Under the pieces are notes generated by a model, which worked only from the letters and a program-made list of their open reading frames with translations, searched no databases and was not told the origin of the DNA. From assembly GCA_025765615.1 (NCBI GenBank), contig JAIVFJ010000220.1:39302-103301 (forward strand): 64,000 bases of DNA, read 5' to 3'. Below, one piece after another: positions 5,497 to 54,503 of this stretch (position 1 is the first letter of the stretch; each line of letters begins with the position of its first letter). Position numbers and translations under genes: made by a program. This DNA is from Zopfochytrium polystomum. Lineage: Eukaryota > Chytridiomycota > Chytridiomycetes > Chytridiales > Chytridiaceae.

Positions 5497-5568
5497 GACT
5501 CCTTAGCTCAACGGTAGAGCATTCGACTCCAGATCGAAAGGTTGCGTGTTCAAATCACGTAGGGGTCA
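5497..5568 (+). tRNA. tRNA-Trp (CCA)
   Basis: Cloverleaf folds cleanly: acceptor GACTCCT pairs with AGGGGTC (one G-T), D arm GCTC/GAGC, anticodon stem TTCGA/TCGAA with loop CTCCAGA, so anticodon CCA. The T arm is GCGTG/CACGT-like with loop TTCAAAT. No intron. First gene of the tRNA cluster. Confidence 0.93.
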
Positions 5569-5824
5569 TTTAAAGACCTACACAGTCCATATATTTATTA
5601 TTGACAGTGTTTGAGTTACTCAGTTCCAGCTCCCTTTCCGCCGCTGGTGGAGGCAATGTCTGGAGCCCAAAGCATGGATTCAACTTGGTTTTGTGTGGCA
5701 ATCGAGAAAGATTTCCCCAACTGCAACAATGAGCCCTTCAACCCCAGGGAGAGTAAGGCTGTCTTCCGCTTATCTCTATTGGGTTTTTCTTTCCTTTTCT
5801 TATTTTATTTTATTATTTTCACTC
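5569..5824. other. Intergenic between tRNA-Trp and MITE
   Basis: No gene seen. T-rich sequence precedes the left terminal repeat of the foldback element. Confidence 0.5.
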
Positions 5825-6105
5825 ACTCCACCAAAAAAATTTTTAAAATCCTGCCAAAGTTGGCATAAAATACGCATTGGAGAACTCCATATTGTGTCCA
5901 AAATCCAAAGAAATTTGATTGAGAAAGTATCAGGAAAAGGCAAAGTATCCTAATTATCTGCTTCTTGTTGGATATTTCAGATGATCTTGGATATTTCTTG
6001 AGTTTTCCAAAAAATATGTTGGGTTTTATTGTAGGCACACAATGTGGTATTTCAGTGCCCATTTTATGCCAACTTTGGCCAGATTTTACGATTTTTTGGC
6101 GGAGT
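5825..6105. mobile_element. Foldback MITE with ~70-bp imperfect terminal inverted repeats
   Basis: The left end (ACTCCACCAAAAAAA..., 5,825-5,895) and the reverse complement of the right end (ACTCCGCCAAAAAAT..., 6,035-6,105) match over about 70 bp, including an exact shared core CCAAAGTTGGCATAAAAT and a shared CATTGTGT-like segment. There is no coding capacity in the 281 bp. The right flank begins TA; a matching TA is not present on the left, so a Tc1/mariner-type duplication cannot be confirmed. It is best read as a non-autonomous DNA transposon. Confidence 0.6.
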
Positions 6106-6746
6106 TAGTACTGCAAAGAAACCAATTTATCTGAGATAAGCAGACTGCAGCCTTTACAGGAGAGTGGAGACTTAGTTTGGGTGAGGCTGCCCTCTCTATT
6201 GGCACTGAGTCTTTGGGGCAACAGTTTGCAATCCTCTCAGGGTAACTGGACAAATAAACTAGCAGTCTTTTGACTTCTAGTACCACTGACCAGCGCCAGT
6301 TATGTTTCCAACAGGAAACTGGCCTCAGCTACTTGAAGGAGACCAAAAAGTGGGAAACAATTGCAACATAGAACACTGCCAAGCCCCAGTAGTTGTAAGA
6401 GTATTTGAGCTGTGCCCCATGCTGAAGCCTTTCTCCTGGGCAATGAAGGTTCAACCACAGACAAGCATGGGGACTGCTTGCTGATGCAAAAGAAGAGATT
6501 ATCAGCAGTTGGCACCACCACGCAAAAATTGCGTCACACGTGGAGGGCGTGTCAGTTGCAGGAGCTTGGAATGAACAAATGAGCATTCAGTGCTGAGTAT
6601 ATAGAGCAAACAACACAGGTGCGTAAACAAAGGCAAACTATGTGATCAGACACAATAATCACTGTCAGCACAGTAACGCCAACCTCATGAAGATCTTCAA
6701 AATCCAATTGCGAGCGCAATCAGTTAAAGCAACTTTGACTAACGAT
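6106..6746. other. Intergenic
   Basis: No gene or clear repeat recognised; ORFs under 90 codons have no domain signature. Confidence 0.5.
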
Positions 6747-6829
6747 TGCGCTGACCGGGAATTGAACCCGAGGCTGATGCTATCTCCCACGGGTGGAAGG
6801 CGTCTATTTTACCACTAAACTACCAGCCC
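6747..6829 (-). tRNA. tRNA-Gly (TCC) with 12-nt intron
   Basis: On the minus strand the D arm reads GTTTAGTGGTAAAAT, typical of eukaryotic Gly tRNAs, and the anticodon loop CTTCCA carries TCC. A 12-nt intron (6,782-6,793) follows position 37; without it the length is 71 nt, normal for Gly. T arm TCGGG/CCCGG with loop TTCAATT. There is one acceptor mismatch (position 2) and one C-A in the anticodon stem, so mild decay is possible. Confidence 0.78.
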
Positions 6830-7367
6830 CCTCTTCTACGTTACTTGGGGTTGTTGTTCCAGTACACATCCTGTTGCCAACCAACGCCAAGCATCACGTT
6901 CCTTCCAATGTTTGCCACCATTGGCAGCACTTTAGCCAGCCATCTCACCCATAGTTAGGAGCTCAAAAGCGCTTGTTCATACAGGTTTGACAAATGGCCA
7001 ATACCACCAGTGCCAAAGTCGTGCAAACAACAAACGGGAATCAACAGAAGGTCCTTGGAGGCAGAATGAGGAGCTCTACTGAGGATGGAGGTGGAGCAGC
7101 TCAGGTTCCAAAATCAATACAATTTCGCTATTTGTGACAAAAAGGGCCTTAACGGTGTTGAGTTGTGTAGTAGCTCAGTGGTGATGGCACAGCTGAATCT
7201 GTGTGCTGACCCAGAGCCCAGCAGAAGACCAGCAGTGTGAGCACCTCCCCTGTGCTCCCCAGTGTGCCTCACCAGGAGAACAATCTTCCTGCCATATGTC
7301 TGTACAGAATTGCCATTTCTCCTTTGAAGGAGAAAGTGCTCTGACCAGCCAGTGGAAGGGAATGGGG
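6830..7367. other. Intergenic
   Basis: No gene seen between tRNA-Gly and tRNA-Met. Confidence 0.5.
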
Positions 7368-7481
7368 TGCTCTGGGTGAGAGTCGAACTCACGACCTTCG
7401 GATGACTGTGTGGAGGAGCACCTGTGCAACCAGGTGTGTCATGTATGAGACCGACGCTTTAACCAACTAAGCCACCAGAGC
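7368..7481 (-). tRNA. tRNA-Met (CAT), elongator type, 40-nt intron
   Basis: Acceptor GCTCTGG pairs perfectly with CCAGAGC; T arm GTGAG/CTCAC is perfect. The anticodon loop CTCATA and the U-U closing pair of the stem are those of elongator Met. An intron of 40 nt (7,404-7,443) lies after position 37; the mature length is 74 nt. Confidence 0.92.
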
Positions 7482-7612
7482 CGTTGCACAAGTGGGTGCA
7501 CTGCATGTCTTGTCGTGTGCCTGCCATTTTCTCACTTGTTTAAGTGGAACATGGCGGGAGGATTCTCCTCATGCCACGCACTAATCATGCGAGTTTTGTT
7601 AGCTTTTGCTAT

Positions 7613-7684
7613 TCCCAGATCGTCTAACAGTCAAGATTCCGCCCTTTCACGGCGGCGATCGGGGTTCGATTCCCCGTCTGGGAG
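7613..7684 (+). tRNA. tRNA-Glu (TTC)
   Basis: Acceptor TCCCAGA/TCTGGGA, anticodon stem CCGCC/GGCGG with loop CTTTCAC (anticodon TTC), T arm CGGGG/CCCCG. 72 nt, no intron, all stems paired. Confidence 0.95.
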
Positions 7685-8617
7685 CCATCAGTTGGACTTC
7701 ACTTGCTGGACAGAGCTTCCACTTCCAGGCTCAGACTCCAGTCCTGGACTGGCTTGGCGTTCACTTGACTGCCACTGGCTGCTTTTTTTCTGCTAAGTCA
7801 CTTCAAATTGTTTCTGTGCTTTTTTCCTAGGATCTGATTTTGTTAGAAATTGAATACTCCATCACGCAAGCCAGTTGACGTGAATGAACAAACAGGAAAA
7901 GTGATTGTTGGTGCAAATTTCAGACCCTGTCCATCCCACTTCCACCTCTGCAGTATTTCACCAGGCACGCCCCATGGATCCTTACTCAGGTGCCTGCTTG
8001 AGAAGCAGGAAATGTAAAGCCACCTCTGAATCAGTCTCATCTGGACCTGTTGCATGCACTCTCTGGCATAGGTGTGAGAATCTCCTACTTCTCCTGGCAG
8101 ACCATGGAGCGTGGCACTCCAGGACAATCCCTCTGGAGAACAGGTTGAGACAAAGTGTGGGGCTTGACAGCTGGGCGTGAGGAAGCAGCACTGTGTGTGG
8201 CGGCAATCAAGCAGGATGCAATGGTGTTGTGGCAACTGCAATGGCAAAGCAGGAGTGATGCAGCAACAGAAATCCTCCTTGAGCTGACAGGGACGCTCTC
8301 TATGAGCTCAAATTTTTGGACGCCCCTTTCTCCTCTGCCACTTAAAAATTCCCAAACTGACAAAAAGCACAAGCACACTTAGGCAAGCTGGTGCTTTCCA
8401 ACTTGGCACCATTTCTTTTCATGAAAACAAACCAGGAGAATCACCTTTTTGGATGATTTAAATTTTGTGTTGGGCCATTGGCAAGCCAAAGCCAGGGACT
8501 GACGTTGTCTGTGGATCAGTGCAATATCAGGCTGCTGCTGCACATCCAGGTTTGGAGCTGCCTGCAAGTGGGACTGGTAAGTACCAATTGAAAGTGGCCT
8601 ATTGGACAGGAGGCACA
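7685..8617. other. Intergenic
   Basis: No gene recognised. ORFs of up to 134 codons occur on both strands but without domain signatures. Confidence 0.45.
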
Positions 8618-8699
8618 GACAACGTGGCCGAGTGGTTAAAGCGACAGACTAGAAATCTGTTACGGTTTCCGTGCGCAGGTTCGAGTCCTGCCGTTGTCG
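8618..8699 (+). tRNA. tRNA-Ser (AGA)
   Basis: Acceptor GACAACG/CGTTGTC, anticodon stem CAGA/TCTG with loop CTAGAAA (anticodon AGA), and a long variable arm (TTACGGTTTCCGTGC) typical of Ser. T arm GCAGG/CCTGC. 82 nt, no intron. Confidence 0.95.
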
Positions 8700-9001
8700 G
8701 ACAGAGTGTTGCATAACCAGCTTGCTCGGCTCCTCCGTGCAGTTATTGCCTTAGTTGCACATAAAGTGTGTGGGTGGCAGGTTAGATCTGCTCTTTTTGG
8801 ATGCAGCTAGTTGGGTGCAGTTAGCCCCAAAGCACCAGAATGCAACTGCCCTTGCAGATGTGGGAGGCCTGGCCAAAGTTAGCTTGTATGCCACGCGTGC
8901 AGCAATAAAACATACGTACTGGATATCCATTTTGCCTGGGAATCCACCCTTCACCAACCGGTGGGGCACTCACATCCTCTCCCTCAACGGCTCGACCCCT
9001 C
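8700..9001. other. Intergenic
   Basis: No gene seen; composition rises in GC toward the next feature. Confidence 0.45.
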
Positions 9002-9416
9002 ATGGATTCCCGGCGCCAGCCCACCCTGACCGCCTTCTTCCCTCGGTCTTCTGCCAAAAAGGGATCGGCTGCGTTGGCCCCGGCCCAATCCGCTGCGGCG
9101 GCGAACGGGGTCGCCTCGGCTGCAGGTCCACGCTCGGGACAGGCAAAAACGACCGTGGCGAAACTGGACGCGGCCACGAGGGAAACGATCGCGCGATACC
9201 TCCCCACCGATCGAGAGGCGCTCGCCACCAATCTCGGTTGCATCGTCGTCGGATTCTTCGGTCGCCGTGCCCATCACCTCCCCAAAAGCTGCCAAAGGAT
9301 CCACGAGTAGAAGCGGGGCTGTCAGTGGTGCCACGTCCAAAAAGGCTGGTGTCGATGCCGGTTTTCACGGCTTGGACGACTCTTCTCTGGACCTGATGCA
9401 GCAGGGGCTCTGTATT
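9002..9416 (+). pseudogene. GC-rich fragment of a PIP-box protein (possibly MSH6- or ligase-like N-terminus)
   Basis: The frame begins MDSRRQPTLTAFFPRSSAKK. QPTLTAFF fits the PCNA-interacting (PIP) box QxxLxxFF, and an N-terminal PIP box followed by a basic, Ala/Ser-rich tail is the layout of MSH6, DNA ligase I and similar replication factors. After about 60 residues a second frame continues in the same style (SPPIERRSPPIS, then SPKAAKGSTSRSG) to about 9,400, so there is one frame break. GC content is sharply higher than in the flanks, and no catalytic domain follows before tRNA-Arg. It is probably a transposed or decayed 5' exon; the identity of the parent gene is a guess. Confidence 0.42.
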
Positions 9417-9559
9417 TCATACTGCAGAAGATCTTGGGAATGGGATTGGGGTAACTGGGATTGCATTTTAGCGCTGAGAGGTTGATTTGACTTAAAGATT
9501 CATGCGTTTGGAAGTCCTAAGATAGCGATGGAAGCATGCAAGCCAAAAGGCGCTAATGT

Positions 9560-9632
9560 GGGTGTGTGGCTAAATGGTTACTGCGCTTGACTACGAATCA
9601 AGAGATTCCAGGTTTGACCCCTGGCACGCTCG
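9560..9632 (+). tRNA. tRNA-Arg (ACG)
   Basis: Acceptor GGGTGTG/CACGCTC (two G-T pairs), anticodon stem CTTGA/TCAAG with loop CTACGAA (anticodon ACG), T arm CCAGG/CCTGG. 73 nt, no intron. Confidence 0.93.
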
Positions 9633-10808
9633 TGTCACTCTGTCTGCAATGGGCAGATTGTGAGATTTTTCATGGCCTGTGGGTATGGTGTCAGCCTCAA
9701 TTGACAGTCAAGTACCCAGTTTCTAGGTTGCAGCGGAGTGTGGAATCTTGTCACTGTTGGTCAAAAGGTGTCTGCTTTCCCAAAGCAAGCAGCTAAGTGG
9801 CAGTTGTTCCTGGGCTTGTCTTATTCTTTCCACTAATTTTTGGACATTTTGAATTCATCCTGTGGCAAGGTTTTCCCCATAGAGCAGCACCAAATCAACA
9901 TGGAATTGCTGTTGCACTAGGTAATGTCCTCTCGCAATGAAGTGATCCAACAGTTGGGAGGGGGGGGTAGGGGGATTTTTGCATAGTTGGTCCAGACCCT
10001 TTCCCCAAATGCTTTTTCGTTTTCATTGGGAACGATTCATCGCCTTTCCCGTTTTACCATAAATTTGTACAGAAACAAAAAAAGTGTCTTCCTTTTTTTT
10101 TTCCTTTTTTCCTCTTTCTGGTCAGTTGCATGCAGCCTCCAAACTTTTCACCAACTTTTCAAGGTATCTTGAAACAGATAAATGCAGCCCCCATTTTACC
10201 ACCCTGTTGGGCGGTCTGACTCTGGTTTGTAGCAATGTTTTTCTTTCATTGCAACAATGACTTTTCAATGGAAACAGCAATATTCAACATTCCTACCAAT
10301 TGCAGTATTGTGCATTTTTGCACGAAACTGACTGACAACCACCCATATGCCAGCCAAAGTGTGCAACCACCCATATGCCAGCCAAAGTGTGCAAAATTTT
10401 GTCGTAAATAGAACCACACAGAATTTGTAAGTGTGACTAAGGTTTCAAACCCATACATATCATTGATAAATCACTTTTGAATATAGTAATTAAAGTTAAA
10501 GCTCCTTGTCCAAAAAAATTTAAAAAAGATTTTCAAAAAGAGAACCAGCCGCTTTGTAGATGCAGAGTTTGTTAAACAATTAATTAGAAAATATCACGAT
10601 ATGTATTAATTTGAAGTGTGACAAGGCACGTTCTTAATTGGAGGGAGGGGCCAGTGAGCAACCACGCCGCCTCAGCACCCTCTTCAATCAGAACACAGCT
10701 TTTCTGTGGTGTGGTTGAACCTGGGTGAAAAGCACAATGTTTTCAATATTCTGGCCAGAAAGGAAGCATAGCAGAGAGTGCTGATGGGTTCAAAGATGAA
10801 CAAGGGAG
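9633..10808. other. Intergenic, contains a 28-bp tandem duplication
   Basis: No gene recognised. At about 10,336-10,391 a 28-bp unit beginning CAACCACCCATATGCC is present twice in perfect tandem. The rest is AT-rich. Confidence 0.6.
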
Positions 10809-10906
10809 CGCCCGATGTGGGGGTCGAACCCACAGCCTTGTGATTGCAGAGACCCTATCTCGGGTTAGTTAAGAGTCACACGCTCTACTGATTGAGCTAA
10901 CCAGGC
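10809..10906 (-). tRNA. tRNA-Lys (CTT) with 25-nt intron
   Basis: Acceptor GCCTGGT/ATCGGGC with wobble pairs, anticodon stem TGTGA/TCACA, loop CTCTTA with anticodon CTT, T arm GTGGG/CCCAC. The intron is 10,845-10,869; the mature length is 73 nt. Confidence 0.92.
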
Positions 10907-11317
10907 TGTACCGGTTACAAGCCACAAGTAAATTTAAATCCACCACCTGCAGCAGGCCAGATTTCAGATCCCTTTTTTGCCAACGCTGACTAAAAGAAAA
11001 GCAGTTTTGAGTTTTAACTTTTTCGAGTGCCTATTTCTTAATATGGTGGCATATGCTGCTGAGCATTTGAGGATGTCTCCCCTGCAAACTGGGCAAACTT
11101 GCGCAGAAAATCATTGAAAGGAGAGAAAAAGTGCCAACTCTGCAATGCAACAGGGACCATGCACCTTGCCTGCTTGACAAGAGAAACAACAAGGGTCATT
11201 GCCAGTCTTGACAGCATCAGTTTTGGTCAGAGTCTGGAAATGAGCAATAAAGGGACATGGTGGCCCAATATGCAAGTCCTGATGCAGTTGACAAAACTTG
11301 CACAGCGATTTATAATG
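10907..11317. other. Intergenic
   Basis: No gene seen between tRNA-Lys and tRNA-Phe. Confidence 0.45.
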
Positions 11318-11426
11318 TGCTGTCTCCCGGGATTGAACCGGGTGCCTTAAGATAGCAGTGGGGCCACCGCACAGAACAGCAGGTGGCTTCTTCAGTCTTG
11401 CGCTCTCCCAGATGAGCTAAGACGGC
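11318..11426 (-). tRNA. tRNA-Phe (GAA) with 36-nt intron
   Basis: Anticodon loop CTGAAG gives GAA. Acceptor GCCGTCT/AGACAGC has one C-A mismatch at position 3; T arm CCCGG/CCGGG is good. The intron is 11,354-11,389; the mature length is 73 nt. Confidence 0.85.
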
Positions 11427-11735
11427 TATGAATCTTACTAACAAAAAAAGCATCCTCAACGTGAGTGCTGTGATCTTTCCATGTTTCTCCTTGGCCTCCC
11501 TGATACAGCTTCTGTTCAGCAGAATTTCCCCTGTTTCCCTCATTCTTGCTCAGCACTCTTTTAGTAGTGTCTAGTGATGGAGCAACCACAGCTGAACTCA
11601 ATATTAGGACTCCCACATTGTGACTAATACCTAAATGGTGCGGCGGCGCTCACGTAAGTAGGAGGAATGTGGCATCTCCTCTCTGCTCCACTGATCCACT
11701 GATCCATCCATCCCTCAGGTCAGGCTCTACGTCTA
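11427..11735. other. Intergenic
   Basis: Nothing recognised between tRNA-Phe and the first REP-A copy. Confidence 0.45.
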
Positions 11736-12147
11736 CTGTTAGGCGGAACTGACTGGTTAGCAGCAAGAGGCACAAGACAGATCCAAACCTATTGTGACTG
11801 TCAGTTATCGTCGTCACAATGCCCATGGGAGAGCGAGCCACCGCCAATGCAGACCTGGGCGCTGGCTTGCGCTGATGACAAAATACTCTGAGTATTAAGT
11901 GGAACAGAAACCCAGTGTCAACAGTTTTCCTCCTCCTCTGCTCAAGCAGATAATATAGGAGAGGTTTTTACCCTGTGCCAGTCATGCTTGCCTAGCAACT
12001 ATTACAGCGTGTATATCATCATCATGTATCAATAATTCATAACAGAGTTTTTTTCTCTTTCTCTCCAAGTTGGGGAGAAGGACCACCCACAAACACACAT
12101 CTCCACTTCATCCACTCCTTCCACTCACTCAGAGTAGACTGTTTACA
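11736..12147 (-). repeat. Dispersed repeat REP-A, copy 1
   Basis: About 410 bp matching 15,852-16,264 and 56,086-56,488 at high identity in the opposite orientation. The family starts TGTAAACAGTCTACTCTGAG and ends ...GGAACTGACTGG...CTAACAG; it holds no long conserved ORF. It is interspersed, non-coding and of unknown class. Confidence 0.8.
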
Positions 12148-13176
12148 TCTACATCCTTCCGTCTTACGAACGGGTGGCATTACGTAAATCTATTTATTTT
12201 CTTTCATCGATGGTCAAATTGTGGCTGGTATTTATTCATCATTATCGTCATCCATGCAAACAGAGCCAGAGGTAGATGGTTACTCTCCTGGGCGACACAG
12301 GTCTAACCACAAGCAGGACTGGCGTACCAGCTCCGCACAAGTGCAAAGAGTCCAACCCAATGACAGGCAGCTCAACTTGTGTTGTAGGAGGTTCAGAGGA
12401 GGCTCATTGGGTAGAACGGAAGGGGATTTCAGAAGAACACAATTGAATTTCTTAGAGATGGCATTTATTGAAGGGTGGGTTTGTAAAGTTGGGTGAGATT
12501 AATGAGGGTGCTCCCCCCAGGGCAGCTATTTATAGGGAGGGGGGGAATTAGGAAAGAAAGAAGAAAAAAAAAGCAGGAAGAAAGGAAGAAAACTGTTTGA
12601 AGTGCAAACAGTCCACTCTGAGTGAGGTAGTGGAAGGAGTGAATGAAGTGGAGATGTGTGTTTCTGAGAGAAAAATGAAATGATGGAAGAATTAAAAATT
12701 AATGACAAGGCGACACTGACAAGAAAGAAAAAATTATTGAAAAGAAGCATTTATAAGATTGTGTAAGCATAAAAACAAGGGGCACTCAAGTTACTCAGAC
12801 GCTAATTGTGACTCAAGAGCCAAAGGGAGCTCTTTACAGTCTGCTACACACCAAATGGAGATGGGCCTGCCCCAACTTGATTCAATGTTTTGGACCCAAA
12901 CACCAATTTTCTTGCTGTTGACAGACATTTGAATTTGACATATTGCTAATTTTACATCAAATTTTGCCAACTTTGAATAAAATACAAAATGTCTATTAAT
13001 GAAGTTGAATTGAATCGAATTCAAACATTGAACTATAAAATTTCCTCAAAGTCCAGCCTGATTCGGTCTGCGGCAGACCCTAGAGCTCTTCTCACTATCA
13101 AACATAGTGAAGTACAGAGGAGGGAAAAAAGTCTTCAGACACTCCGAATTTTCTGAATTCTCAGACAGAAGTCCAT
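12148..13176. other. Intergenic with a partial REP-A fragment
   Basis: At about 12,610-12,680 a plus-orientation fragment carries the REP-A start (ACAGTCCACTCTGAGTGAG...GTGTGTTT), then diverges. The remainder is AT-rich with no gene recognised. Confidence 0.5.
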
Positions 13177-13489
13177 TGTCAGGAACATGGTAGGACAAGG
13201 TAAGGCATGGCAGACAAGGAACTGAGAGGAGTGATGATTGTATTGGAAACAATAATTCACTTGAGGGATGGGACAGGTCCCCATCCCCCTTTTATACCTT
13301 TTGAGAGTGTTCCTTGTCAAGACTCAAAGAAAGTTCCAGAAAGAGCAATTAGTAATACAACGATACCAATGATACCAATGACAACAAGACAAGTCAGGAA
13401 AGCAAAGAAGGTTCCAGAAGGTTCCAGAAGGTTCCATGAAGGAATGTTCTAGAAGGTTCCAGAGGTTTCCAGAGGGTGATTCATTGGCA
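13177..13489 (-). repeat. Old solo LTR of the chromovirus family
   Basis: Reads, on the minus strand, as the same LTR as the array at 31.95-54.5 kb: HSE-type GAA/TTC array, TATAAAAGGGGG, the AAGTGAATTAT transcript start, and an end TGTTCCTGACA. It has the shorter HSE array and the 3' end CTGCCATGCC that only LTR 9 (54,191-54,503) shares, and several extra substitutions, so it is an older or distinct subfamily copy. No interior is present. No clear 5-bp target duplication was found. Confidence 0.88.
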
Positions 13490-15151
13490 GAGAACTCTGT
13501 CAGTTTCCAATATTTGTTAGGAGATTTTGTACACTGATAGGGCACTAGTAGTCAAATACATTAGAGAATTTTGATGAGACGTCTGCGGCTCATTCTCCTG
13601 ATAATAGGAATTTTACGTGAAAATTTTGGAAATGAACTGCCTGTCAATTTTCACTCTTCCTAATCTGATTTACGCACTTTGCACACTGCAAACCAGTTTT
13701 ACTGGTAAACAATCTGAAACAGATCACCACATACATAGCTTTGATATGATGAAATGGACTGTGGCATTTTCCAGCAGCTCCAGAAGTTGGAGAAGTCATT
13801 CACAGCAAAACTTGCAAACTTATTGCTTATTGGTTCAAAAAAACTTTTGATCACACGAAGCTTGCAACTTATTCACCAAAATGTTTCACAAGCGCCTATC
13901 TTCTTCAGCAGCGTCTCTAAAGAGGCTTCAAATGGGAAGGTATTTGAGTTTAGAAATTGCTTGTTTGCAAGTTATCTGGTTGCTCCAGCTTCTTTTGCTG
14001 CTGAAAATCACACAGTGCATTCAGGGTCACAATTGGTTTTTGAAAAATGATGCGCTATCAATCAGCTCCTGTTGAGGCATTTTCGTGCAAACTGCTCAAA
14101 GAGAGCAACTCAAGAGGGTCTGTCTATTCCCAGTGTTTTCCTATTTAATTGCTATTATCTGGGGACTGAGCTGCTGCAACTTCATAAAATTTTTTAGCAG
14201 CATATCACTCCACCAAATTCCTAATTGTGCTCAAAGTTTGGCATCAAAAGATTGAGAACTGGGACAGTTTTGTATATTGGGCTTCTGTGAAGGACGCTGG
14301 AACTTTTTGCATTTTTTTTTTTTTTTTTTCCCCCAACTGTACAATGGAATTAGAGCAGGAAGCTTGACAATTAGTCTGAATATTTAGTCTGCATAGTAGA
14401 AAATTTCTGAGTAAACTTAATAAGAAGCGCAGAGATTGGATATCTGTATCTGCTTCATGTCTGCAAGAAAACCAGGATAATGAGAAGCACATGTAAGGGG
14501 CTATCTGCTACCGCCTTTTTGGATGACAGCCTTAAATAGTCTGAGTATGTAGCCGTGGTTCTGAAAAATTAATTGTTTGGTGGGAAATGCCACATCAGAG
14601 TAATTTTTTTCGCAAAGGCCTCCAGAGGAAACAATGGCTGAAAGGCAAAAACAGTGGGTGGAAAGGAGGCTGCCCTCACCATAAGACCTTGTCAGTGATC
14701 TGTCCTTCTTAATTCATTCCCAATTGTTGTTCCAATTTTTCCAATAATTGAACTGGCTCCCTCTTCTGCCAAGCAGATGATTATGGGTTGGTTACGCTCT
14801 CCCAGTGACTGTTATTACAGCTTGGGTGTTTGGCTTACAAGGATTCACATTCCAATCATTCTGCTTGGAATTTTTCTGGTTAATGTGCATTAGAGGAAAC
14901 TTGAAAGCCACCAAAACGTTCTGACGAGGTTTTGCTTGATTCTGCAGGCTGTGCCCTCCTAAAACCAGCCTGTTAAGCAACAGTGAACCTGTTGGGTTAG
15001 CCAAACCCCCAAGCCTTAGCTATTATAGCATGCATATCATCATTATATTTCAATTACTCACAGCAGAGTTTTCCTGCTCTCCAAGAAGGACTCTTGACAA
15101 ACTGACAAACACACATGTCAATGAGTTCTGTATATACCGCCAACAGGACAT
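13490..15151. other. Intergenic
   Basis: AT-rich with a T run near 14,311-14,330. A diverged REP-A fragment lies at about 15,016-15,116 (minus orientation). No gene recognised. Confidence 0.45.
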
Positions 15152-15224
15152 GGGGAATTAGCTCAAATGGTAGAGCGCTCGCTTAGCATGCGAGAGGCAC
15201 GGGGATCGATACCCCGATTCTCCA
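15152..15224 (+). tRNA. tRNA-Ala (AGC)
   Basis: Acceptor GGGGAAT/ATTCTCC, anticodon stem CTCGC/GCGAG with loop TTAGCAT (anticodon AGC), T arm CGGGG/CCCCG with loop ATCGATA. 73 nt, no intron. Confidence 0.94.
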
Positions 15225-15851
15225 AAAAATGCGTAGCCAATTTCTGGGGTATGCCTCTCTGCCAGTGTGATGTTTTGAAGGCACAAAAGTTACTTGCTGC
15301 TTGGTCAGAGGATAGACCAAAGGACTGTGTTGGGTAGGGCTCAGCAGTCAGCCAGTTTTGACCCTGATCCTTATCCAAACTGGAATTTTTCTGCCTGACT
15401 TTTGAGGAATCCGCCTGAAAACTTGCGGGGACCCTGTGGATCTCCATAGACAGAGGGCTCTTTTTCGGGAACCACAAGGGCAGACGCAGAGCGTTTTCCT
15501 GGATTGTCCGCCCCAAGTCTGTACTGCACAGCCTTAAGAATGAATGGCTTTTTCCCAAACCAATAGGGTTTAACACAGGTTGGGCTGGATTTGCAATTTG
15601 ACTTGATTCAATTTGGGTTTCCACACTCAAATGACAATTTTTTGCAATATGCCAGACATTTGATTTGCCAAATTAGGCATTTTTAGGCGGAATCACCCCT
15701 AATAGGACAGACATTTGAAAAAATACTCATTAAAAAGCTTTGAATCAAACGCAAATGGCTGATTTTGGCAAACAATCATTTGATTTGTTTTGATTTGATT
15801 TTTTGAATCAGACCCAAATCAGGCCTTTTTTTCATACAATTCAATTCATGT
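15225..15851. other. Intergenic, AT-rich
   Basis: No gene seen. The 15,600-15,840 stretch repeats TTTGATTTG/CAAATCA-type words, low complexity. Confidence 0.45.
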
Positions 15852-31953: not shown

Positions 31954-32306
31954 TGTTATGAATCACCCTCTGGAAACCTCTGGAACCTTCTAGAACATTC
32001 CTTCATGGAACCTTCTGGAACCTTCTGGAACCTTCTAGAACATTCCTTCATGGAACCTTGTGGAACCTTCTGGAACCTTCTTTGCTTTCCTGACTTGTCT
32101 TGTTGTCATTGGTATCATTGGTATCATTGTATTACTAATTGCTCTTTCTGGAACTTTCTTGGAGTCTTGACAAGGAACACTCTCAAAAGGTATAAAAGGG
32201 GGATGGGGGACCTGTCCCATCCCTCAAGTGAATTATTGTTTCCAATACAATCATCACTCCTCTCAGTTCCTTGTCTGCCTTGTCCTGTCCTGCCCTGTTC
32301 CTGACA
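31954..32306 (+). repeat. Chromovirus LTR 1 (solo, TSD CATTG), a-type
   Basis: 353 bp, TG...CA ends, flanked by CATTG on both sides (31,949-31,953 and 32,307-32,311), so at this site it behaves as a solo LTR. It has a-type diagnostic bases (T at 32,130, T at 32,283). HSE array 31,972-32,081, TATAAAA at 32,191-32,197, transcript start word AAGTGAATTAT at about 32,226. Confidence 0.92.
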
Positions 32307-32607: not shown

Positions 32608-32625
32608 TGTTATGAATCACCCTCT

Positions 32626-32735
32626 GGAAACCTCTGGAACCTTCTAGAACATTCCTTCATGGAACCTTCTGGAACCTTCTGGAACCTTCTAGAACATTCC
32701 TTCATGGAACCTTGTGGAACCTTCTGGAACCTTCT
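32626..32735. promoter_or_regulatory. Heat-shock-element array in the LTR U3
   Basis: Twenty-two consecutive 5-bp units in one register, of which 18 are nGAAn or nTTCn, alternating in orientation (gGAAc cTTCt aGAAc aTTCc ...). The exceptions are single units reading cCTCt, tTCAt (twice) and cTTGt. Three or more alternating nGAAn units are the binding site of trimeric heat shock factor. The array is present in all full-length LTRs (e.g. 31,972-32,081, 37,578-37,687, 38,232-38,341) and shortened in LTR 9 and the 13,177 solo LTR. Confidence 0.8.
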
Positions 32736-32799
32736 TTGCTTTCCTGACTTGTCTTGTTGTCATTGGTATCATTGGTATCATTGCATTACTAATTGCTCT

Positions 32800-32812
32800 T
32801 TCTGGAACTTTC
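32800..32812. promoter_or_regulatory. TATA-proximal heat shock element
   Basis: TTCTGGAACTTTC is a perfect three-unit HSE (TTCnnGAAnnTTC), 33 bp upstream of the TATA box. It is conserved in the older solo LTR at 13,177-13,489, where other parts of the LTR have changed. Confidence 0.78.
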
Positions 32813-32844
32813 TTGGAGTCTTGACAAGGAACACTCTCAAAAGG

Positions 32845-32890
32845 TATAAAAGGGGGATGGGGGACCTGTCCCATCCCTCAAGTGAATTAT
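32845..32890 (+). promoter_or_regulatory. LTR TATA box and predicted transcript start
   Basis: TATAAAA at 32,845-32,851, then 28 bp to AAGTGAATTAT (32,880-32,890). The distance of 35 bp from the first T of TATA fits a pol II start, and the start word is the exact complement of the primer-binding site, as expected for the mRNA 5' end of a self-priming element. Confidence 0.72.
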
Positions 32891-32962
32891 TGTTTCCAAT
32901 ACAATCATCACTCCTCTCAGTTCCTTGTCTGCCTTGCCCTGTCCTGCCCTGTTCCTGACATC

Positions 32963-32973
32963 ATAATTCACTT
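32963..32973 (+). promoter_or_regulatory. Primer-binding site, self-priming type
   Basis: ATAATTCACTT, two bases after the 5' LTR, is perfectly complementary over 11 nt to the predicted 5' end of the element's own RNA (AAGTGAATTAT, 32,880-32,890). No tRNA 3' end complement (TGG...) is present at this place. Same sites at 38,569-38,579 and 49,594-49,604; the copy 3 site is corrupted. Confidence 0.78.
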
Positions 32974-33000
32974 CACCCTCTCCCACTACTCTCTGCCATC

Positions 33001-33924
33001 ATGTCTGACCCAAACAACACCTTCCCTGATGCAACTGCCTTCCAAGCCTTGATGGACCAATTACAAGCCCTTTCAAGACAGACACACCAACTTCAAGAAC
33101 AAGTCCTTCACCAGCAGCACCAGCTTCAACAACAACTTCACCAACAAGAACATCAAGCTCTTCCCCTGCCTCAAGCCAACCAAGCAAGAGAGCCCAAGGT
33201 TCCCAGCCCTGACAAGTTCACTGGGCTGGCCAAAGACCTTAGGAACTTCATGGCCACTGTGGAGAATGTCATCCTTCTCCAACCTTCAAGATTTCCCAGT
33301 GAGCAAGTCAAGGTTCTTTTCACAAGCACCCTCCTGTCTGGTCAAGCTCAATCATGGTACAGATCTCTCCCAAGCACACCCACCACCCTGCAAGAGCTCT
33401 GGGAGGGGCTGGAAGCTACCTTTGGTGACCCCTACGCATCTTGGACAGCAAGATCCAAGCTCAAGCATATCAAGCAAGGAAAGCAATCTTGTGTGGCCTA
33501 CACCAACCAATTCAAGCAACTAGCCAGAGACTCTGGATACAATGATGCAGCTCTGATGGAGCTGTACCATGATGGTCTCCATGAGTCTATCCAAGACATG
33601 CTCTCCCAGTCTCTGCACATCCCTGAGACCTTGGAAGAGTACATTCTCCTTGCCATCAAGATTGACAACAGACTCTACTCCAAGAGGCTGAAGCAAAGAC
33701 AAGTAGGAACTACATCAAGACCTACCCCAGTTCCTCAAGCTCTTACAGTTCCTGAACCCATGCAAGTGGATGCAGTTGAGACACTTCCTAAGGGTCCTCT
33801 GAGCCAAGAGGAGAAAACAAGGAGGGCCCAGCAGGGACTGTGTTTTTACTGTGGCTCCAAGGAGCATGCTGTCAAGGACTGCCCAAGGAAGAAGCACCCA
33901 AACTCCCAGGTCCAGGCTCACTGA
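33001..33924 (+). CDS. gag: Gag, chromovirus copy 1
   Basis: 307 residues. A Gln/His-rich N-terminus (residues ~20-55) probably forms a coiled coil, followed by the retrotransposon Gag core (KFTGLAKDLRNFMATVENVI, GQAQSWYRSL, WEGLEATFGDPYASWTARSKLKHIKQG, YHDGLHESIQDML) and a nucleocapsid zinc knuckle CFYCGSKEHAVKDC (CX2CX4HX4C). It forms the virus-like particle and packages RNA. The ATG lies 40 nt after the LTR and is the first in the transcript leader after the primer-binding site. The end overlaps pol, with a -1 frameshift signal 21 nt before the stop. Confidence 0.95.
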   Translation: MSDPNNTFPDATAFQALMDQLQALSRQTHQLQEQVLHQQHQLQQQLHQQEHQALPLPQANQAREPKVPSPDKFTGLAKDLRNFMATVENVILLQPSRFPSEQVKVLFTSTLLSGQAQSWYRSLPSTPTTLQELWEGLEATFGDPYASWTARSKLKHIKQGKQSCVAYTNQFKQLARDSGYNDAALMELYHDGLHESIQDMLSQSLHIPETLEEYILLAIKIDNRLYSKRLKQRQVGTTSRPTPVPQALTVPEPMQVDAVETLPKGPLSQEEKTRRAQQGLCFYCGSKEHAVKDCPRKKHPNSQVQAH

Positions 33925-36900
33925 GGGGCAATTCCCTGGACCCTCCTCCAAGCTGCCCCTGTTTCATCACCACCACCAGCACCACAAACACCTCAGATTC
34001 CAAGCCCCACCAACTCACCATGGATGTCAAGATTCAACTCTCACCCAAGTCAACCATCACAACCAAGGCCCTTATAGACTCTGGATCATCCTGCAACATC
34101 ATTGATGCCACCCTTGCCAAGTCTTGTGCCATTCCTACGATCAAGAAATCCACACCCCTCAAGGTCCACTTTGCCAATCATGCTCTGTTCAAGGAAATCA
34201 GCCATGAAACCAAGCTAAACCTCCACATCCAAGACTTTCCACCATCCATGGTCAATCTGGAAGTATTGGATCTTGGCTCACCCACATTCTCTGTCATCCT
34301 GGGATTACCATGGCTGCAAACCCAGAACCCTGCCATTGATTGGGTCACTGGTCAAGTCCAACCTCCACCAATCGGAACAGTCACCCAAAACTCAAGTCAA
34401 GCCCCCAAGTCTCATGCTCTCAAGCCCTTGATTCAAGATTCACAGCCAGCCAAGACTCAAGTTCCACAGTTCACAGTTCACAGTCAAGATTCAAGTAGAG
34501 CTCATAGAGCTCACAGTCATGGCCATGACTCTTGTTCACAGAACCCACAGTCAAAGATTCAAGTACCACAGTTCACAGTCCACATTCAAGATTCAAGTTC
34601 CACAGCTCACAGTCTTTGCCAAGAACAGAACTCTCAGTCAAAGATTCAAGAATCACAGTTCCCAGTCAAGAATTCAAGCCCCACTGCTGAGGAGCACGAC
34701 AACCTGGACCCATCAGACCTTTTGCTGGCATCCAAGCTACCAAAAGAATATCTCCCTTATGCTGATGTGTTTTCCAAGACCAAGGCAGACCTGCTACCAG
34801 CTCAGAGGCCTTATGACTGTGAAATCCCACTCAAGGATGAAACTTGCAGCCCACCTTTCAAGCCACTGTACCACCTCTCTCCACCAGAAGCCAAGGCCCT
34901 CCAAGAATACATTGAAGAAATGCTGAACAAGGGATTCATCCAACCTTCCAAGTCACCAGCTGGAGCTCCCATCTTTTTTGTCAAGAAGAAGGATGGGGGA
35001 CTGAGACCCTGTGTGGACTACAGAGATCTCAATGAGATGACAGTCAAGAACCGCTATCCACTGCCTCTCATCTCTGAATTACTGGACAAACTGAGCCATG
35101 CAAGGATATTTTCCAAGATTGACCTCAGAGGTGCCTACAATTTGGTCAGAATTAAGCCCCAGGATCAATGGAAGACTGCCTTCAGATGCAAATACGGTCA
35201 CTTTGAGTACTTGGTCATGCCCTTTGGACTTACCAATGCTCCAGCTATTTTCCAAGGCATGATGAATGACATCTTCAGGGATATTCTGGACCTTTTTGTC
35301 ATTGTCTACCTGGATGATATCCTGGTATTTTCATCTGACACTGCAAGCCATATGGGACATGTCAAGACTGTCTTGGAGAGACTCAGACAGCATCACCTCT
35401 ATGCAAAGCTGGAGAAGTGTGAATTCCACAAGACCTCCATTGAGTTTTTGGGGTTCATTGTGTCTGACAAAGGGATCTCCATGGCACCAGACAAGATCCA
35501 AACTATTCTTGAATGGAAGGCTCCAAATTCCATCAAGGATGTTCAAAGCTTCCTTGGATTTTGCAACTTCTACAGAACCTTCATTGCCAACTATTCTGCC
35601 ATAGCCAAGCCTCTCACTGATCTCACCAAGAAGACCACCAAGTTTGAATGGACCCCAGCAGCAGAGCAAGCCTGGCTAGCTCTTAAGACAGCAACCACAA
35701 GTGCACCACTCCTTAAGCATGTGGATCCCTTGCTTCCCTTCACCTTGGAAACTGATGCCTCAGACTATGCCCTTGGCGCTGTTCTGTCCCAGCCAAGCTC
35801 TCAGGACCCCTCTGCTCCTCTGCATCCAGTGGCATATTACTCCAGGAAGCTGAACAGTGCTGAGTGTAACTACACAGTCCATGACAAGGAGTTGCTTGCA
35901 ATTGTGGAAGCATTCAAATTCTGGAGACACTACTTGGCTGGTTCTAAAGGCATCTCTGTCTATTCTGATCACAAGAACCTCACCTTCTTCAGGGCAAGGA
36001 GGTTGCTCAAGCAGAGGCATGCCAGGTGGGCTGAACTGCTCTCTGAGTATGACTTTAAGCTGTGCTATTCTCCTGGCCACCTTAACACTGTGGCTGATGC
36101 CCTGTCAAGAAGAACAGACCTTGCACCTGAAGGGGGAGATGGTTTCACCCCACCATCCAAGACACACCTTTCATTGCTTCCTGACAGTGTGTGGGCCCAT
36201 GCTATTTCCAAGGACCCCAAGCCTCACAAGATTCAAATCAGCCAAGAAGAGGAAAAACTTGAGATACTCAAGACAAGGCATGATGCAGCAACAGCTGGAC
36301 ACCCAGGAGAGCACAAGACATATGAGCTTGTTTCCAGAGACTTCTACTGGCCAGGCATGAGGAAGTACATCAAGAACTATGTCAGCAGCTGTGAAACCTG
36401 TCAAAGAAACAAATCCAGCAGACACAAGCCCTATGGACTTCTGGAGCCCCTCCCAATTGCCATCAGCCCTTGGTCATCAATATCCATGGACTTCATTGTG
36501 AAACTGCCCCCATCCCATGGATTTGACTCTATCCTTGTTGTCATCTGCAGAAGGACAAAGTTGGCCCATTTCATCCCCTGCACTGAGAATATAGATGCAC
36601 AAGGAACAGCAGACCTGTTTTTGCAGCACATATTCAGGCTCCATGGGCTGCCTCAGTCAATCGTCAGTGACAGAGGACCACAGTTCAGATCTCAATTTTG
36701 GAAAGCACTCACAGCAGCCCTTGGAATCAAGTCTCAACTGTCAACTGCTTATCACCCTCAGACTGATGGACAAACAGAAAGAACAAACCAGACTCTGGAG
36801 CAGTATTTGAGGTGCTATGTCAGCTATCAACAGGATGATTGGCCCACCCTCCTTCCACTGGCAGAATTTGCTCTCAACAATTCTCTCCACTCAAGCACCC

Positions 36901-37559
36901 AGCTATCTCCTTTCTTTGCAACCTATGGCTTCAATCCAAGAGGAGATCTTCTGGGACAAGAGACCCTATCCAATGTCCAAGCTCCTGCTGTGGCTTCACA
37001 CTTGCATAAGCTCAAGATCATCAGCACCTTCCTGGACTCCACCCTGAAGCAAGCCCAAGAAGATGCCTCAAGATTTGCCAACACTCACAGAATGGACCAT
37101 GACCTTGCTGTGGGTCAGCAAGTTTGGCTTCTGAGGAAGAACTTGCAGACCAAAAGACCAAGTCCCAAGCTAGACAACCTCAAGTTGGGACCTTTCAAGA
37201 TCTTGGAGCAAATCAATCCAGTCACCTTCAAGCTGGATCTCCCTGCATCCATGAAGATCCACCCAGTTTTCCATGTCAGCCTTTTAGAGAAGTTTGTGGC
37301 CAATTCCATTCCAGGCAGAGTTGTTCCTCCTCCTCCTCCAGTTGAGGTAGAAGGTGAAGAGGAATTTGAGGTTGAACAAATCTTGGATGCCAAGTGGTTT
37401 GGAAGAACACTCAAGTTCCTTGTTAAGTGGAAAGGTTACTCAGATGCTGACAACACCTGGGAACCTGAGTCGAACCTCACTCACTGCCAAGACCTTCTGC
37501 TCGAGTTCAAGACCAGGTACCCCACCAAGTTGCAGAAGAGGCCTAAAAGGGGGAGATGA
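33840..37559 (+). CDS. pol: Pol, chromovirus copy 1 (PR-RT-RNaseH-IN-chromodomain)
   Basis: Open for 1,239 codons in the -1 frame relative to gag; translation enters at the slip site 33,897-33,903, so the product is Gag-Pol. Visible in order: protease KALIDSGSSCNII (ORF residues ~76-88); reverse transcriptase with VDYRDLN, FSKIDLRGAYN, MPFGLTNAPAIFQ and VYLDDILVFS; RNase H with TLETDASDYALGAVL and YSDHKNLTFF; integrase zinc module H-H-C-C ending SCETCQRNK; integrase core with SMDFIVKLP, SDRGPQF and the Glu in QTERTNQTLE; and a C-terminal chromodomain EEFEVEQILDAKW...FLVKWKGYSDADNTWEP. The chromodomain places it in the chromoviruses and directs integration to modified chromatin. No defect is seen. 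Confidence 0.95.
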   Translation: MFLLWLQGACCQGLPKEEAPKLPGPGSLRGNSLDPPPSCPCFITTTSTTNTSDSKPHQLTMDVKIQLSPKSTITTKALIDSGSSCNIIDATLAKSCAIPTIKKSTPLKVHFANHALFKEISHETKLNLHIQDFPPSMVNLEVLDLGSPTFSVILGLPWLQTQNPAIDWVTGQVQPPPIGTVTQNSSQAPKSHALKPLIQDSQPAKTQVPQFTVHSQDSSRAHRAHSHGHDSCSQNPQSKIQVPQFTVHIQDSSSTAHSLCQEQNSQSKIQESQFPVKNSSPTAEEHDNLDPSDLLLASKLPKEYLPYADVFSKTKADLLPAQRPYDCEIPLKDETCSPPFKPLYHLSPPEAKALQEYIEEMLNKGFIQPSKSPAGAPIFFVKKKDGGLRPCVDYRDLNEMTVKNRYPLPLISELLDKLSHARIFSKIDLRGAYNLVRIKPQDQWKTAFRCKYGHFEYLVMPFGLTNAPAIFQGMMNDIFRDILDLFVIVYLDDILVFSSDTASHMGHVKTVLERLRQHHLYAKLEKCEFHKTSIEFLGFIVSDKGISMAPDKIQTILEWKAPNSIKDVQSFLGFCNFYRTFIANYSAIAKPLTDLTKKTTKFEWTPAAEQAWLALKTATTSAPLLKHVDPLLPFTLETDASDYALGAVLSQPSSQDPSAPLHPVAYYSRKLNSAECNYTVHDKELLAIVEAFKFWRHYLAGSKGISVYSDHKNLTFFRARRLLKQRHARWAELLSEYDFKLCYSPGHLNTVADALSRRTDLAPEGGDGFTPPSKTHLSLLPDSVWAHAISKDPKPHKIQISQEEEKLEILKTRHDAATAGHPGEHKTYELVSRDFYWPGMRKYIKNYVSSCETCQRNKSSRHKPYGLLEPLPIAISPWSSISMDFIVKLPPSHGFDSILVVICRRTKLAHFIPCTENIDAQGTADLFLQHIFRLHGLPQSIVSDRGPQFRSQFWKALTAALGIKSQLSTAYHPQTDGQTERTNQTLEQYLRCYVSYQQDDWPTLLPLAEFALNNSLHSSTQLSPFFATYGFNPRGDLLGQETLSNVQAPAVASHLHKLKIISTFLDSTLKQAQEDASRFANTHRMDHDLAVGQQVWLLRKNLQTKRPSPKLDNLKLGPFKILEQINPVTFKLDLPASMKIHPVFHVSLLEKFVANSIPGRVVPPPPPVEVEGEEEFEVEQILDAKWFGRTLKFLVKWKGYSDADNTWEPESNLTHCQDLLLEFKTRYPTKLQKRPKRGR
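33897..33960 (+). promoter_or_regulatory. -1 programmed frameshift signal: slippery heptamer and H-type pseudoknot
   Basis: C CCA AAC (33,897-33,903) is in the X XXY YYZ phase of gag. After a 5-nt spacer, stem 1 is GGTCCAGG (33,909-33,916) with CCTGGACC (33,935-33,942), 8 perfect pairs. The loop contains AGGGGCA (33,924-33,930), which pairs perfectly with TGCCCCT (33,954-33,960) as stem 2. A slip of -1 enters pol exactly (KLPGPGSLRG). Same in all copies: 39,503-39,566, 45,104-45,167, 50,528-50,591. Confidence 0.85.
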
Positions 37560-37912
37560 TGTTATGAATCACCCTCTGGAAACCTCTGGAACCTTCTAGA
37601 ACATTCCTTCATGGAACCTTCTGGAACCTTCTGGAACCTTCTAGAACATTCCTTCATGGAACCTTGTGGAACCTTCTGGAACCTTCTTTGCTTTCCTGAC
37701 TTGTCTTGTTGTCATTGGTATCATTGGTATCATTGTATTACTAATTGCTCTTTCTGGAACTTTCTTGGAGTCTTGACAAGGAACACTCTCAAAAGGTATA
37801 AAAGGGGGATGGGGGACCTGTCCCATCCCTCAAGTGAATTATTGTTTCCAATACAATCATCACTCCTCTCAGTTCCTTGTCTGCCTTGTCCTGTCCTGCC
37901 CTGTTCCTGACA
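37560..37912 (+). repeat. Chromovirus LTR 3, a-type
   Basis: 353 bp, directly after the pol stop; 3' LTR of copy 1. Same diagnostic bases as LTR 1 (a-type) and, like it, followed by CATTG and the copia fragment. Confidence 0.93.
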
Positions 37913-38213: not shown

Positions 38214-38566
38214 TGTTATGAATCACCCTCTGGAAACCTCTGGAACCTTCTAGAACATTCCTTCATGGAACCTTCTGGAACCTTCTGGAACCTTCTAGAA
38301 CATTCCTTCATGGAACCTTGTGGAACCTTCTGGAACCTTCTTTGCTTTCCTGACTTGTCTTGTTGTCATTGGTATCATTGGTATCATTGCATTACTAATT
38401 GCTCTTTCTGGAACTTTCTTGGAGTCTTGACAAGGAACACTCTCAAAAGGTATAAAAGGGGGATGGGGGACCTGTCCCATCCCTCAAGTGAATTATTGTT
38501 TCCAATACAATCATCACTCCTCTCAGTTCCTTGTCTGCCTTGCCCTGTCCTGCCCTGTTCCTGACA
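38214..38566 (+). repeat. Chromovirus LTR 4, b-type
   Basis: 353 bp, 5' LTR of copy 2; b-type diagnostic bases as in LTR 2. Confidence 0.93.
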
Positions 38567-43165: not shown

Positions 43166-43517
43166 TGTTATGAATCACCCTCTGGAAACCTCTGGAACCT
43201 TCTAGAACATTCCTTCATGGAACCTTCTGGAACCTTCTGGAACCTTCTAGAACATTCCTTCATGGAACCTTGTGGAACCTTCTGGAACCTTCTTTGCTTT
43301 CCTGACTTGTCTTGTTGTCATTGGTATCATTGGTATCATTGTATTACTAATTGCTCTTTCTGGAACTTTCTTGGAGTCTTGACAAGGAACACTCTCAAAA
43401 GGTATAAAAGGGGGATGGGGGACCTGTCCCATCCCTCAAGTGAATTATTGTTTCCAATACAATCATCACTCCTTCAGTTCCTTGTCTGCCTTGTCCTGTC
43501 CTGCCCTGTTCCTGACA
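43166..43517 (+). repeat. Chromovirus LTR 5, a-type
   Basis: 352 bp; one base deleted in CACTCCTCTCAG near 43,472 relative to LTR 3. a-type diagnostic bases. Confidence 0.92.
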
Positions 43518-43818: not shown

Positions 43819-44167
43819 TGTTATGAATCACCCTCTGGAAACCTCTGGAACCTTCTAGAACATTCCTTCATGGAACCTTCTGGAACCTTCTGGAACCTTC
43901 TAGAACATTCCTTCATGGAACCTTGTGGAACCTTCTGGAACCTTCTTGCTTTATGACTTGTCTTGTTGTATTGAGTATCATTGGTATCATTGCATTATAC
44001 TAATTGCTCTTTCTGAACTTTCTGGAGTCTTGACAAGAACATCTCAAAAGGTAGTTAAAGGGGGATGGTGGGACCGTCCATCCCTTCAAAGCTGAATATT
44101 GTTTACAAACAATCATCACTCCTCTCAGTTTCATGTTGCCTTGCCCTGTCCTGCCATGTTCTGGACA
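43819..44167 (+). repeat. Chromovirus LTR 6, b-type, indel-rich 3' part
   Basis: Matches LTR 2 and 4 exactly through the HSE array, then from about 43,946 shows small insertions and deletions every 10-20 bp, including in the TATA region (GGTAGTTAAAGGGGG) and the transcript-start word. The pattern looks like unpolished sequence more than mutation. Confidence 0.85.
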
Positions 44168-48767: not shown

Positions 48768-49114
48768 TGTTATGAATCACCCTCTGGAAACCTCTGGAAC
48801 CTTCTAGAACATTCCTTCATGGAACCTTCTGGAACCTTCTGGAACCTTCTAGAACATTCCTTCATGGAACCTTGTGGAACCTTCTGGAACCTTCTTTGCT
48901 TTCCTGACTTGTCTTGTTGTCATTGGTATCATTGGTATCATTGTATTACTACATTGCTTCTTTATCTGGAAACTTTCTTGGAGTCTTGACAAGGAACACT
49001 CTCAAGGTATAAAAGGGGGATGGGGACCTGTCCCATCCCTCAAGTGAATTATTGTTTCCAATACAATCATCACTCCTCTCAGTCCTGTCTGCCTTGTCCT
49101 GTCTGCCCTGTTCC
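48768..49114 (+). repeat. Chromovirus LTR 7, a-type, 3' end degraded
   Basis: 3' LTR of copy 3. Same as LTR 3 to about 48,950, then indels, and the last five bases (TGACA) are missing before unrelated sequence begins at about 49,115. Confidence 0.85.
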
Positions 49115-49250: not shown

Positions 49251-49591
49251 TCACCCTGAAACCTCTGGAACCTTCTAGAACATTCCTTCATGGAACCTTC
49301 TGGAACCTTCTGGAACCTTCTAGAACATTCCTTCATGGAACCTTGTGGAACCTTCTGGAACCTTCTTTGCTTTCCTGACTTGTCTTGTTGTCATTGGTAT
49401 CATTGGTATCATTGCATTACTAATTGCTCTTTCTGGAACTTTCTTGGAGTCTTGACAAGGAACACTCTCAAAAGGTATAAAAGGGGGATGGGGGACCTGT
49501 CCCATCCCTCAAGTGAATTATTGTTTCCAATACAATCATCACTCCTCTCAGTTCCTTGTCTGCCTTGCCCTGTCCTGCCCTGTTCCTGACA
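49251..49591 (+). repeat. Chromovirus LTR 8, b-type, 5' end truncated
   Basis: 5' LTR of copy 4; starts within the LTR at TCACCCT, lacking TGTTATGAA and two more bases. The remainder, including the HSE array, TATA box and b-type bases, matches LTR 2. Confidence 0.88.
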
Positions 49592-54190: not shown

Positions 54191-54503
54191 TGTTATGAAT
54201 CACCCTCTGGAAACCTCTGGAACCTTCTAGAACATTCCTTCATGGAACCTTGTGGAACCTTCTGGAACCTTCTTTGCTTTCCTGACTTGTCTTGTTGTCA
54301 TTGGTATCATTGGTATCATTGTATTACTAATTGCTCTTTCTGGAACTTTCTTGGAGTCTTGACAAGGAACACTCTCAAAAGGTATAAAAGGGGGATGGGG
54401 GACCTGTCCCATCCCTCAAGTGAATTATTGTTTCCAATACAATCATCACTCCTCTCAGTTCCTTGTCTGCCATGCCTTGCCTTGTCCTGCCATGTTCCTG
54501 ACA
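54191..54503 (+). repeat. Chromovirus LTR 9, short hybrid type
   Basis: 313 bp: one block of the HSE array is missing, and the 3' end reads CTGCCATGCCTTGCC...CCATGTTCCTGACA like the old solo LTR at 13,177-13,489, not like LTRs 1-8. The right flank is TGCAG and a truncated tRNA-Ile. It looks like a pre-existing LTR of another subfamily joined to the array. Confidence 0.9.

Follow-up and report, generated by a model that had tools for sequence, protein, structure and literature searches.

The analysed window is a 64,000-nucleotide stretch of the Zopfochytrium polystomum genome that contains a Ty3 chromovirus, its long terminal repeats (LTRs) and further LTRs of the same family. The U3 region of these LTRs carries a repetitive array of heat-shock-element (HSE) units upstream of a TATA box. 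The features of the window are listed below with their coordinates and strand.

32608–32960, + strand: LTR of 353 bp, with boundaries from blastn; U3 is 32608–32879 and R-U5 is 32880–32960, as divided by the self-priming match
32626–32735, + strand: array of 22 HSE units, 18 of them GAA/TTC, with 10-bp and 45-bp periods
32800–32812, + strand: proximal three-unit HSE, TTCTGGAACTTTC
32845–32851, + strand: TATA box, TATAAAA
32880–32890, + strand: inferred transcription start and self-primer, AAGTGAATTAT, an 11-nt exact complement of 32963–32973
32963–32973, + strand: primer-binding site, which pairs with the inferred 5' end of the RNA made from the element
33001–33924, + strand: gag open reading frame (Retrotrans_gag)
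33840–37559, + strand: pol open reading frame with protease, RT, RNase H, integrase, SH3 and chromodomain, in the −1 frame relative to gag; the coordinate 33840 is merely the first GTG after a stop
37560–37912, + strand: 3' LTR of the element, with the same array
31954–32306, + strand: further LTR, same array
38214–38566, + strand: further LTR, same array
43166–43517, + strand: further LTR, same array
43819–44161, + strand: further LTR, same array, with scattered gaps elsewhere and a broken proximal HSE
48768–49114, + strand: further LTR, same array, with a broken proximal HSE
49258–49591, + strand: further LTR without its first 19 bp, with the same array runs
54191–54503, + strand: LTR with a short array allele of 83 bp (10 units)
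13177–13489, − strand: older solo LTR with a short array (11 units) and an intact proximal HSE at 13329–13341
59099–60643: F-box protein

The pol domains occur in the order RVT_1, RNase H, H2C2, rve, SH3_Tf2-1 and Chromo, which identifies the element as a Ty3 chromovirus. Its gag has 25 protein neighbours, the best with 68% identity over 79%, and no gag relatives were confirmed in viral and prokaryote contigs. The gag and pol frames overlap at 33840–33924 with pol in the −1 frame, which suggests programmed frameshifting. The primer-binding site starts at the third base past the LTR end and pairs exactly over 11 nt with 32880–32890 within the LTR. Self-priming, in which the 5' end of the element's RNA pairs with the primer-binding site, is the Tf1 arrangement, which characterizes one branch of Ty3 chromoviruses. 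This self-priming match makes 32880 the likely transcription start, which puts the beginning of the TATAAAA (32845) 35 bp upstream of it. Relative to this start, the array extends from −254 to −145 and the proximal HSE from −80 to −68.

Between 31954 and 54503, an LTR, ~300 bp of other sequence, a second LTR and an internal region recur with a period of ~5606 bp; either a unit made of a solo LTR and an element has been amplified in tandem, or the repetition comes from the assembly. The LTRs at 43819–44161 and 48768–49114 have 20 and 11 gap positions, respectively, compared with nearly identical neighbours, and these gaps may resemble consensus or assembly errors more than age. Elsewhere in the window, a tRNA gene cluster occupies 5497–15225, within 10 kb, with eight genes recognized by Rfam and six by ARAGORN.

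Positions 19–128 of the U3 (32626–32735) consist of 22 five-base units in a single register, and 18 of these have a GAA or TTC core, exactly as an earlier note on this DNA had described. The same note held that the units alternate in orientation, which is correct within blocks; the phase is switched at TTCAT units, so that alternation does not continue across them. Perfect alternating runs of 4, 8 and 4 units result, along with two isolated units. The array is tandemly repetitive with periods of 10 bp and 45 bp, and its 22 units appear to derive from 45-bp duplication. A separate perfect three-unit HSE, also recognized earlier, lies 32 bp before the TATAAAA. The U3 contains HSEs with at least three inverted nGAAn units, which is one of the features of the ONSEN-like mode of control.

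Comparison with shuffled LTRs, which had been proposed as a check, places both the array and the proximal HSE far beyond shuffled sequences. In 2000 dinucleotide shuffles, the longest alternating run never exceeded 3 units (8 in the LTR) and in-register units never exceeded 7 (18 of 22 in the LTR), but tandem copies are not independent, so these whole-array figures overstate independence. When the array is collapsed to one 45-bp unit, 8 of 9 units still have the core, compared with at most 6 in 5000 shuffles. For the non-array part of the LTR, a run of at least three units arises in 0.3% of 5000 shuffles. Across the 64-kb window, all 36 runs of at least three units occur inside LTRs of this chromovirus family.

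The pattern extends genome-wide. Counts were taken over the 80.2-Mb assembly of 761 contigs. The five-unit pattern TTCnnGAAnnTTCnnGAAnnTTC has 2,234 and 2,229 matches on the two strands (4,463 in total, overlapping within arrays), compared with 1 and 0 for the reversed control. A seven-unit pattern has 993 + 994 matches and its reversed control 0 + 0. One hundred listed five-unit matches represent 27 arrays on contigs C1–C5, and every one of the 27 lies within LTRs of this family, 19 assigned by sequence and eight by an adjoining zero-mismatch LTR segment. A 70-bp segment from the proximal HSE to the TATA box matches 1,409 times (689 + 720) with at most three mismatches. A 46-bp segment at the array start has 1,407 + 1,457 matches, a count that is not a copy number because the segment can match twice per 22-unit LTR at three mismatches. 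Among 1,271 LTR candidates, 40 were scored, all with at least 586 bits and shown as 100% identity, and six pairs are 4,952 bp apart; the scored copies are recent, although the scoring by design favours the most similar candidates. On contig C6, HSE arrays recur every 1725 bp at ~235460–240635, which perhaps represents a tandem array of a shortened unit that contains the LTR array.

The host encodes an HSF DNA-binding domain with the canonical recognition helix. Fourteen HSF-domain matches occur in the genome, which implies more than one HSF-type gene. In all 10 HSF loci examined, SFVRQLNMYGFHKV lies in an open frame, with SSFVRQ in seven and ASFVRQ in three (L068–L070); three others (L065–L067) have differing sequence after the domain. 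One HSF domain matches HSF1, HSF2 and HSF4 structures and also a PDB entry named 'putative transcription factor' with an HSF-type domain. The best named relatives of the HSF protein, among the best 120 of 1,730, are from Zopfochytrium polystomum (85%, covering 60% of the query) and Cladochytrium tenue (71%, covering 69%), a result that by this one gene places the host probably in or near the Chytridiomycota, to which Zopfochytrium belongs.

Host small heat-shock-protein (small-HSP) promoters have a similar grammar. Of 33 HSP20 matches, some belong to a single gene as separate exons, and 20 loci were analysed over the 1 kb that leads up to the domain match. In 16 of these 20, this stretch contains a four-unit HSE that agrees at 11 of 12 core letters; the 16 fall in 6 of 9 promoter clusters defined at 80% identity. 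The loci are paralogues and not independent. Nine of the 16 sites have the form GAATTGTCCAGAA(A/G)CTTC, three have GAACCATCCAGAAACTTC, and four belong to a group with GAAATTTCTGGAA. The site lies ~15–80 bp before a TATAAA in 14 of the 16 promoters, as read by eye. No LTR-free 1-kb background tile reaches 11 of 12 (0/53; the maximum is 10, in 9 tiles), and neither does any of the 10 HSF loci. Three perfect units occur in only 4 of the 20 loci (L084–L087) and four perfect units in none, and single-locus shuffle p values for the 16 loci range from 0.02 to 0.10 with 40 shuffles each. The four-unit site at 11/12 is absent from the 1 kb upstream of L071, L073, L088 and L090. The L071 and L073 promoters lack an HSE that related loci keep and are possible natural loss-of-HSE alleles. 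Upstream of an HSP104-like gene (ClpB_D2 match, L105, with its start placed by eye), GAAGCAGCCAGAAGGTTC scores 10 of 12, a level that 9 of the 53 background tiles also reach; the same promoter contains CCAGAAGGTTC, an 11-mer of the minus strand of the LTR array. Neither of the two HSP90 loci has an HSE above shuffles upstream.

The sites, their register, the promoter layout, the HSF domains and the matching small-HSP promoters are all legible in the DNA itself. Together they make it probable (about 0.68) that the LTR of this self-priming Ty3 chromovirus is an HSF-driven promoter of heat-shock type, through which gag-pol would be induced by heat or protein damage. Host HSF trimers would bind, presumably with cooperativity, along the U3 array and at the proximal HSE. 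Bound HSF would then bring transcription to the TATA box, which lies 35 bp upstream of the start, and gag-pol RNA would rise when heat or protein damage activates HSF. Growth of the array through 10- and 45-bp duplications may have strengthened the promoter in the recently multiplied copies.

Control by HSF seems more certain than heat as the trigger, and a developmental trigger is the main rival to stress induction. HSF could bind the LTR in response to developmental or basal HSF activity, for example in sporulation or zoospore stages, rather than to heat. Such a trigger predicts sites and HSF genes identical to those expected under stress induction, and the multiplicity of HSF-type genes among the 14 domain matches would accommodate it. 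The grammar shared with small-HSP promoters points instead to a general stress regulon, and we regard a developmental trigger as unlikely.

Array length is variable. A survey of 28 distinct LTR sequences, weighted to young copies and with L101–L104 left out, gave array segments of 83 bp (n = 7), 128 bp (n = 13), 138 bp (n = 2), 148 bp (n = 1) and 173 bp (n = 1). The remaining rows are two of 127 bp, one partial copy and L094, which is listed as 106 bp since its alignment began late and which by hand belongs to the 83-bp class. The alleles seen have about 13, 22, 24, 26 and 31 units, and GAA/TTC units per allele range from 10 to 26 in the 28 sequences. The claim that every full-length LTR has the 22-unit array was consequently too strong: the LTR at 54191–54503 has 10 such units in its 83-bp segment. 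Three of the six most diverged copies (L094, L093 and the solo LTR at 13177–13489) have short alleles, as do several close ones.

With the window LTR as reference, array cores have 20 substitutions in 1,361 aligned sites (0.0147) and spacers 19 in 903 (0.0210); for distinct changes the difference gives p = 0.18, with rows for L094, the solo LTR 13405 and L096 counted despite array-length alignment artefacts. The proximal core, with 8 substitutions in 251 sites, is not below the rest of the LTR (166 in 6,163). Of the 28 distinct LTRs, 23 have an intact proximal three-unit HSE and five a broken one; these five are L094, L093, L099 and the LTRs that begin at 43819 and 48768. It had been argued that this HSE matters because it is preserved in an old copy. 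It is indeed intact in the solo LTR at 13177–13489, but among the six most diverged LTRs it is intact only there and in L100 and broken in the other four, so that the argument fails. The comparison of cores with spacers, which shows no significant difference, does not support conservation as proof of function. Most LTR copies are probably dead and free to decay, and conservation neither proves nor excludes function of the HSEs. The inference of HSF control made in the earlier note now draws its strength from the HSF domains, the small-HSP grammar and the placement within the promoter; its appeals to a constant array and a preserved HSE have fallen away.

These data also bear on whether the array could be a minisatellite that evolves neutrally, with a 10-bp unit that reads TTCnnGAA by accident and a promoter that does not depend on it. 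The strong tandem structure with 10-bp and 45-bp units, the variable unit number and the lack of significantly greater conservation in cores are all compatible with neutrality, as is the expectation that 0.27% of random 10-bp tandem units would read TTCnnGAA. Against neutrality stand the proximal HSE, a second site of three units within one promoter (0.3% of shuffles), the matching host small-HSP promoters and the presence of the array even in L094, the most diverged copy examined (86.8%). We consider neutrality improbable. Alternating registers of at least three units are the classical HSF-trimer site. That close forms of this site precede small-HSP genes makes it highly improbable that another HSF-domain family member, of which Skn7 and Sfl1 are named examples, acts on the array as activator or repressor with the classical heat response uninvolved, even though the genome has several HSF-domain genes, L065–L067 diverge after the domain and an HSF-type 'putative transcription factor' is among the PDB matches.

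A second property of the family is its near-loss of CpG, which spans 32608–37559 and sister copies to 54503. The LTR contains no CpG compared with 16.7 expected, and the internal region has 10 compared with 262 expected, with gag and pol open. Under synonymous shuffling, codon-boundary CpG is 1 in gag (18.7 expected) and 6 in the pol part (93.8 expected), and only 1 of 60 arginine codons in the element is CGN. Values for TpG (1.53) and CpA (1.42) in the element compare with 1.14–1.30 and 1.22–1.37, respectively, in three host stretches, a pattern such as deamination of methylated CpG would leave. In 1-kb tiles outside the element cluster, the CpG comparison ranges from 0.2 to 1.25. The genome has 19 C5-methylase family matches, several with internal stops, and the LTR has 14 CHG sites. 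Should the host methylate CpG, a promoter that lacks CpG and is driven by HSF would presumably escape this modification. A tentative and rather doubtful extension is that the family escaped two host controls, being nearly free of CpG and so no target for CpG methylation, while having the longest HSF landing strip in an LTR that we know of.

Retroelements with heat-responsive repeats have several precedents. Dictyostelium DIRS-1 reportedly has a heat-shock promoter inside its terminal repeats, in work by Zuker from 1983 and 1984 and by Cappello. It belongs to the tyrosine-recombinase DIRS class; judged by titles alone, the likeness is a heat-shock promoter in retroelement terminal repeats, and the differences are class, inverted terminal repeats and host. 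MAGGY of Magnaporthe, a Ty3 chromovirus, is said to be activated by heat shock according to Ikeda in 2001, and the likeness, from the title alone, is that of a fungal retrotransposon activated by heat shock. In Ty1/copia elements integrase precedes RT. Here it follows RT-RNase H, which is the Ty3 type and excludes membership in the ONSEN/COPIA78 family.

The available text of PMC3978060, which cites Ikeda 2001 on MAGGY, has 0 occurrences of the term 'HSE'. HSFA2 binding and heat induction are established for ONSEN, whose LTR has a cluster of four nGAAn motifs according to the sections available (PMC3907296), and AlTERESTRA is likewise described with a cluster of six (PMC5059998). ONSEN/COPIA78 and TERESTRA of Brassicaceae share with the chytrid element an HSF site cluster in the LTR built of nTTCnnGAAn units. 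In the accounts available, they are plant copia elements with four and six motifs, whereas the present case is a fungal Ty3 chromovirus with 18 units, a proximal HSE and 14 CHG sites, known from its sequence. By analogy, the element may be able to work like ONSEN without being a member of that family. In Cryptococcus, the accessible part of one report gives one putative HSE in the TCN12 LTR and two in that of TCN3, along with measured movement at 37 °C, and states that heat-shock activation of transposable elements through host machinery 'remains undescribed in fungi' (PMC12810828). As described there, these are also fungal LTR retrotransposons with putative LTR HSEs; theirs number one or two with movement measured, and ours are read from DNA. 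Human satellite III, which is GGAAU-rich, is an HSF1 target in the portion of PMC9032817 available; it shares a tandem GAA array in 5-bp register linked to HSF1 and differs, on that account, in being a pericentric satellite of predominantly one orientation and not an LTR promoter. Caenorhabditis Helitrons carry HSEs to many genomic places, according to the available text of PMC6927752, and are similar as HSE-carrying transposons but differ as DNA transposons in another host.

Among the matches listed, in a search with most subscription journals outside its reach, no paper describes a chytrid LTR with an HSE array, and with the same coverage none was found that joins heat shock elements, gypsy and chromovirus. 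An HSF-activated LTR is already known as a kind; host group, element class and array length together set this case apart. The family is an unusually clean system, given its 18 HSF-type units in one LTR, its roughly 1,400 LTR copies and a natural range of 10–26 units among alleles. These alleles lend themselves to testing how output and copy success vary with HSE dose. If HSF control is confirmed, a chytrid Ty3 chromovirus would join a mode of regulation that is best known from copia elements.
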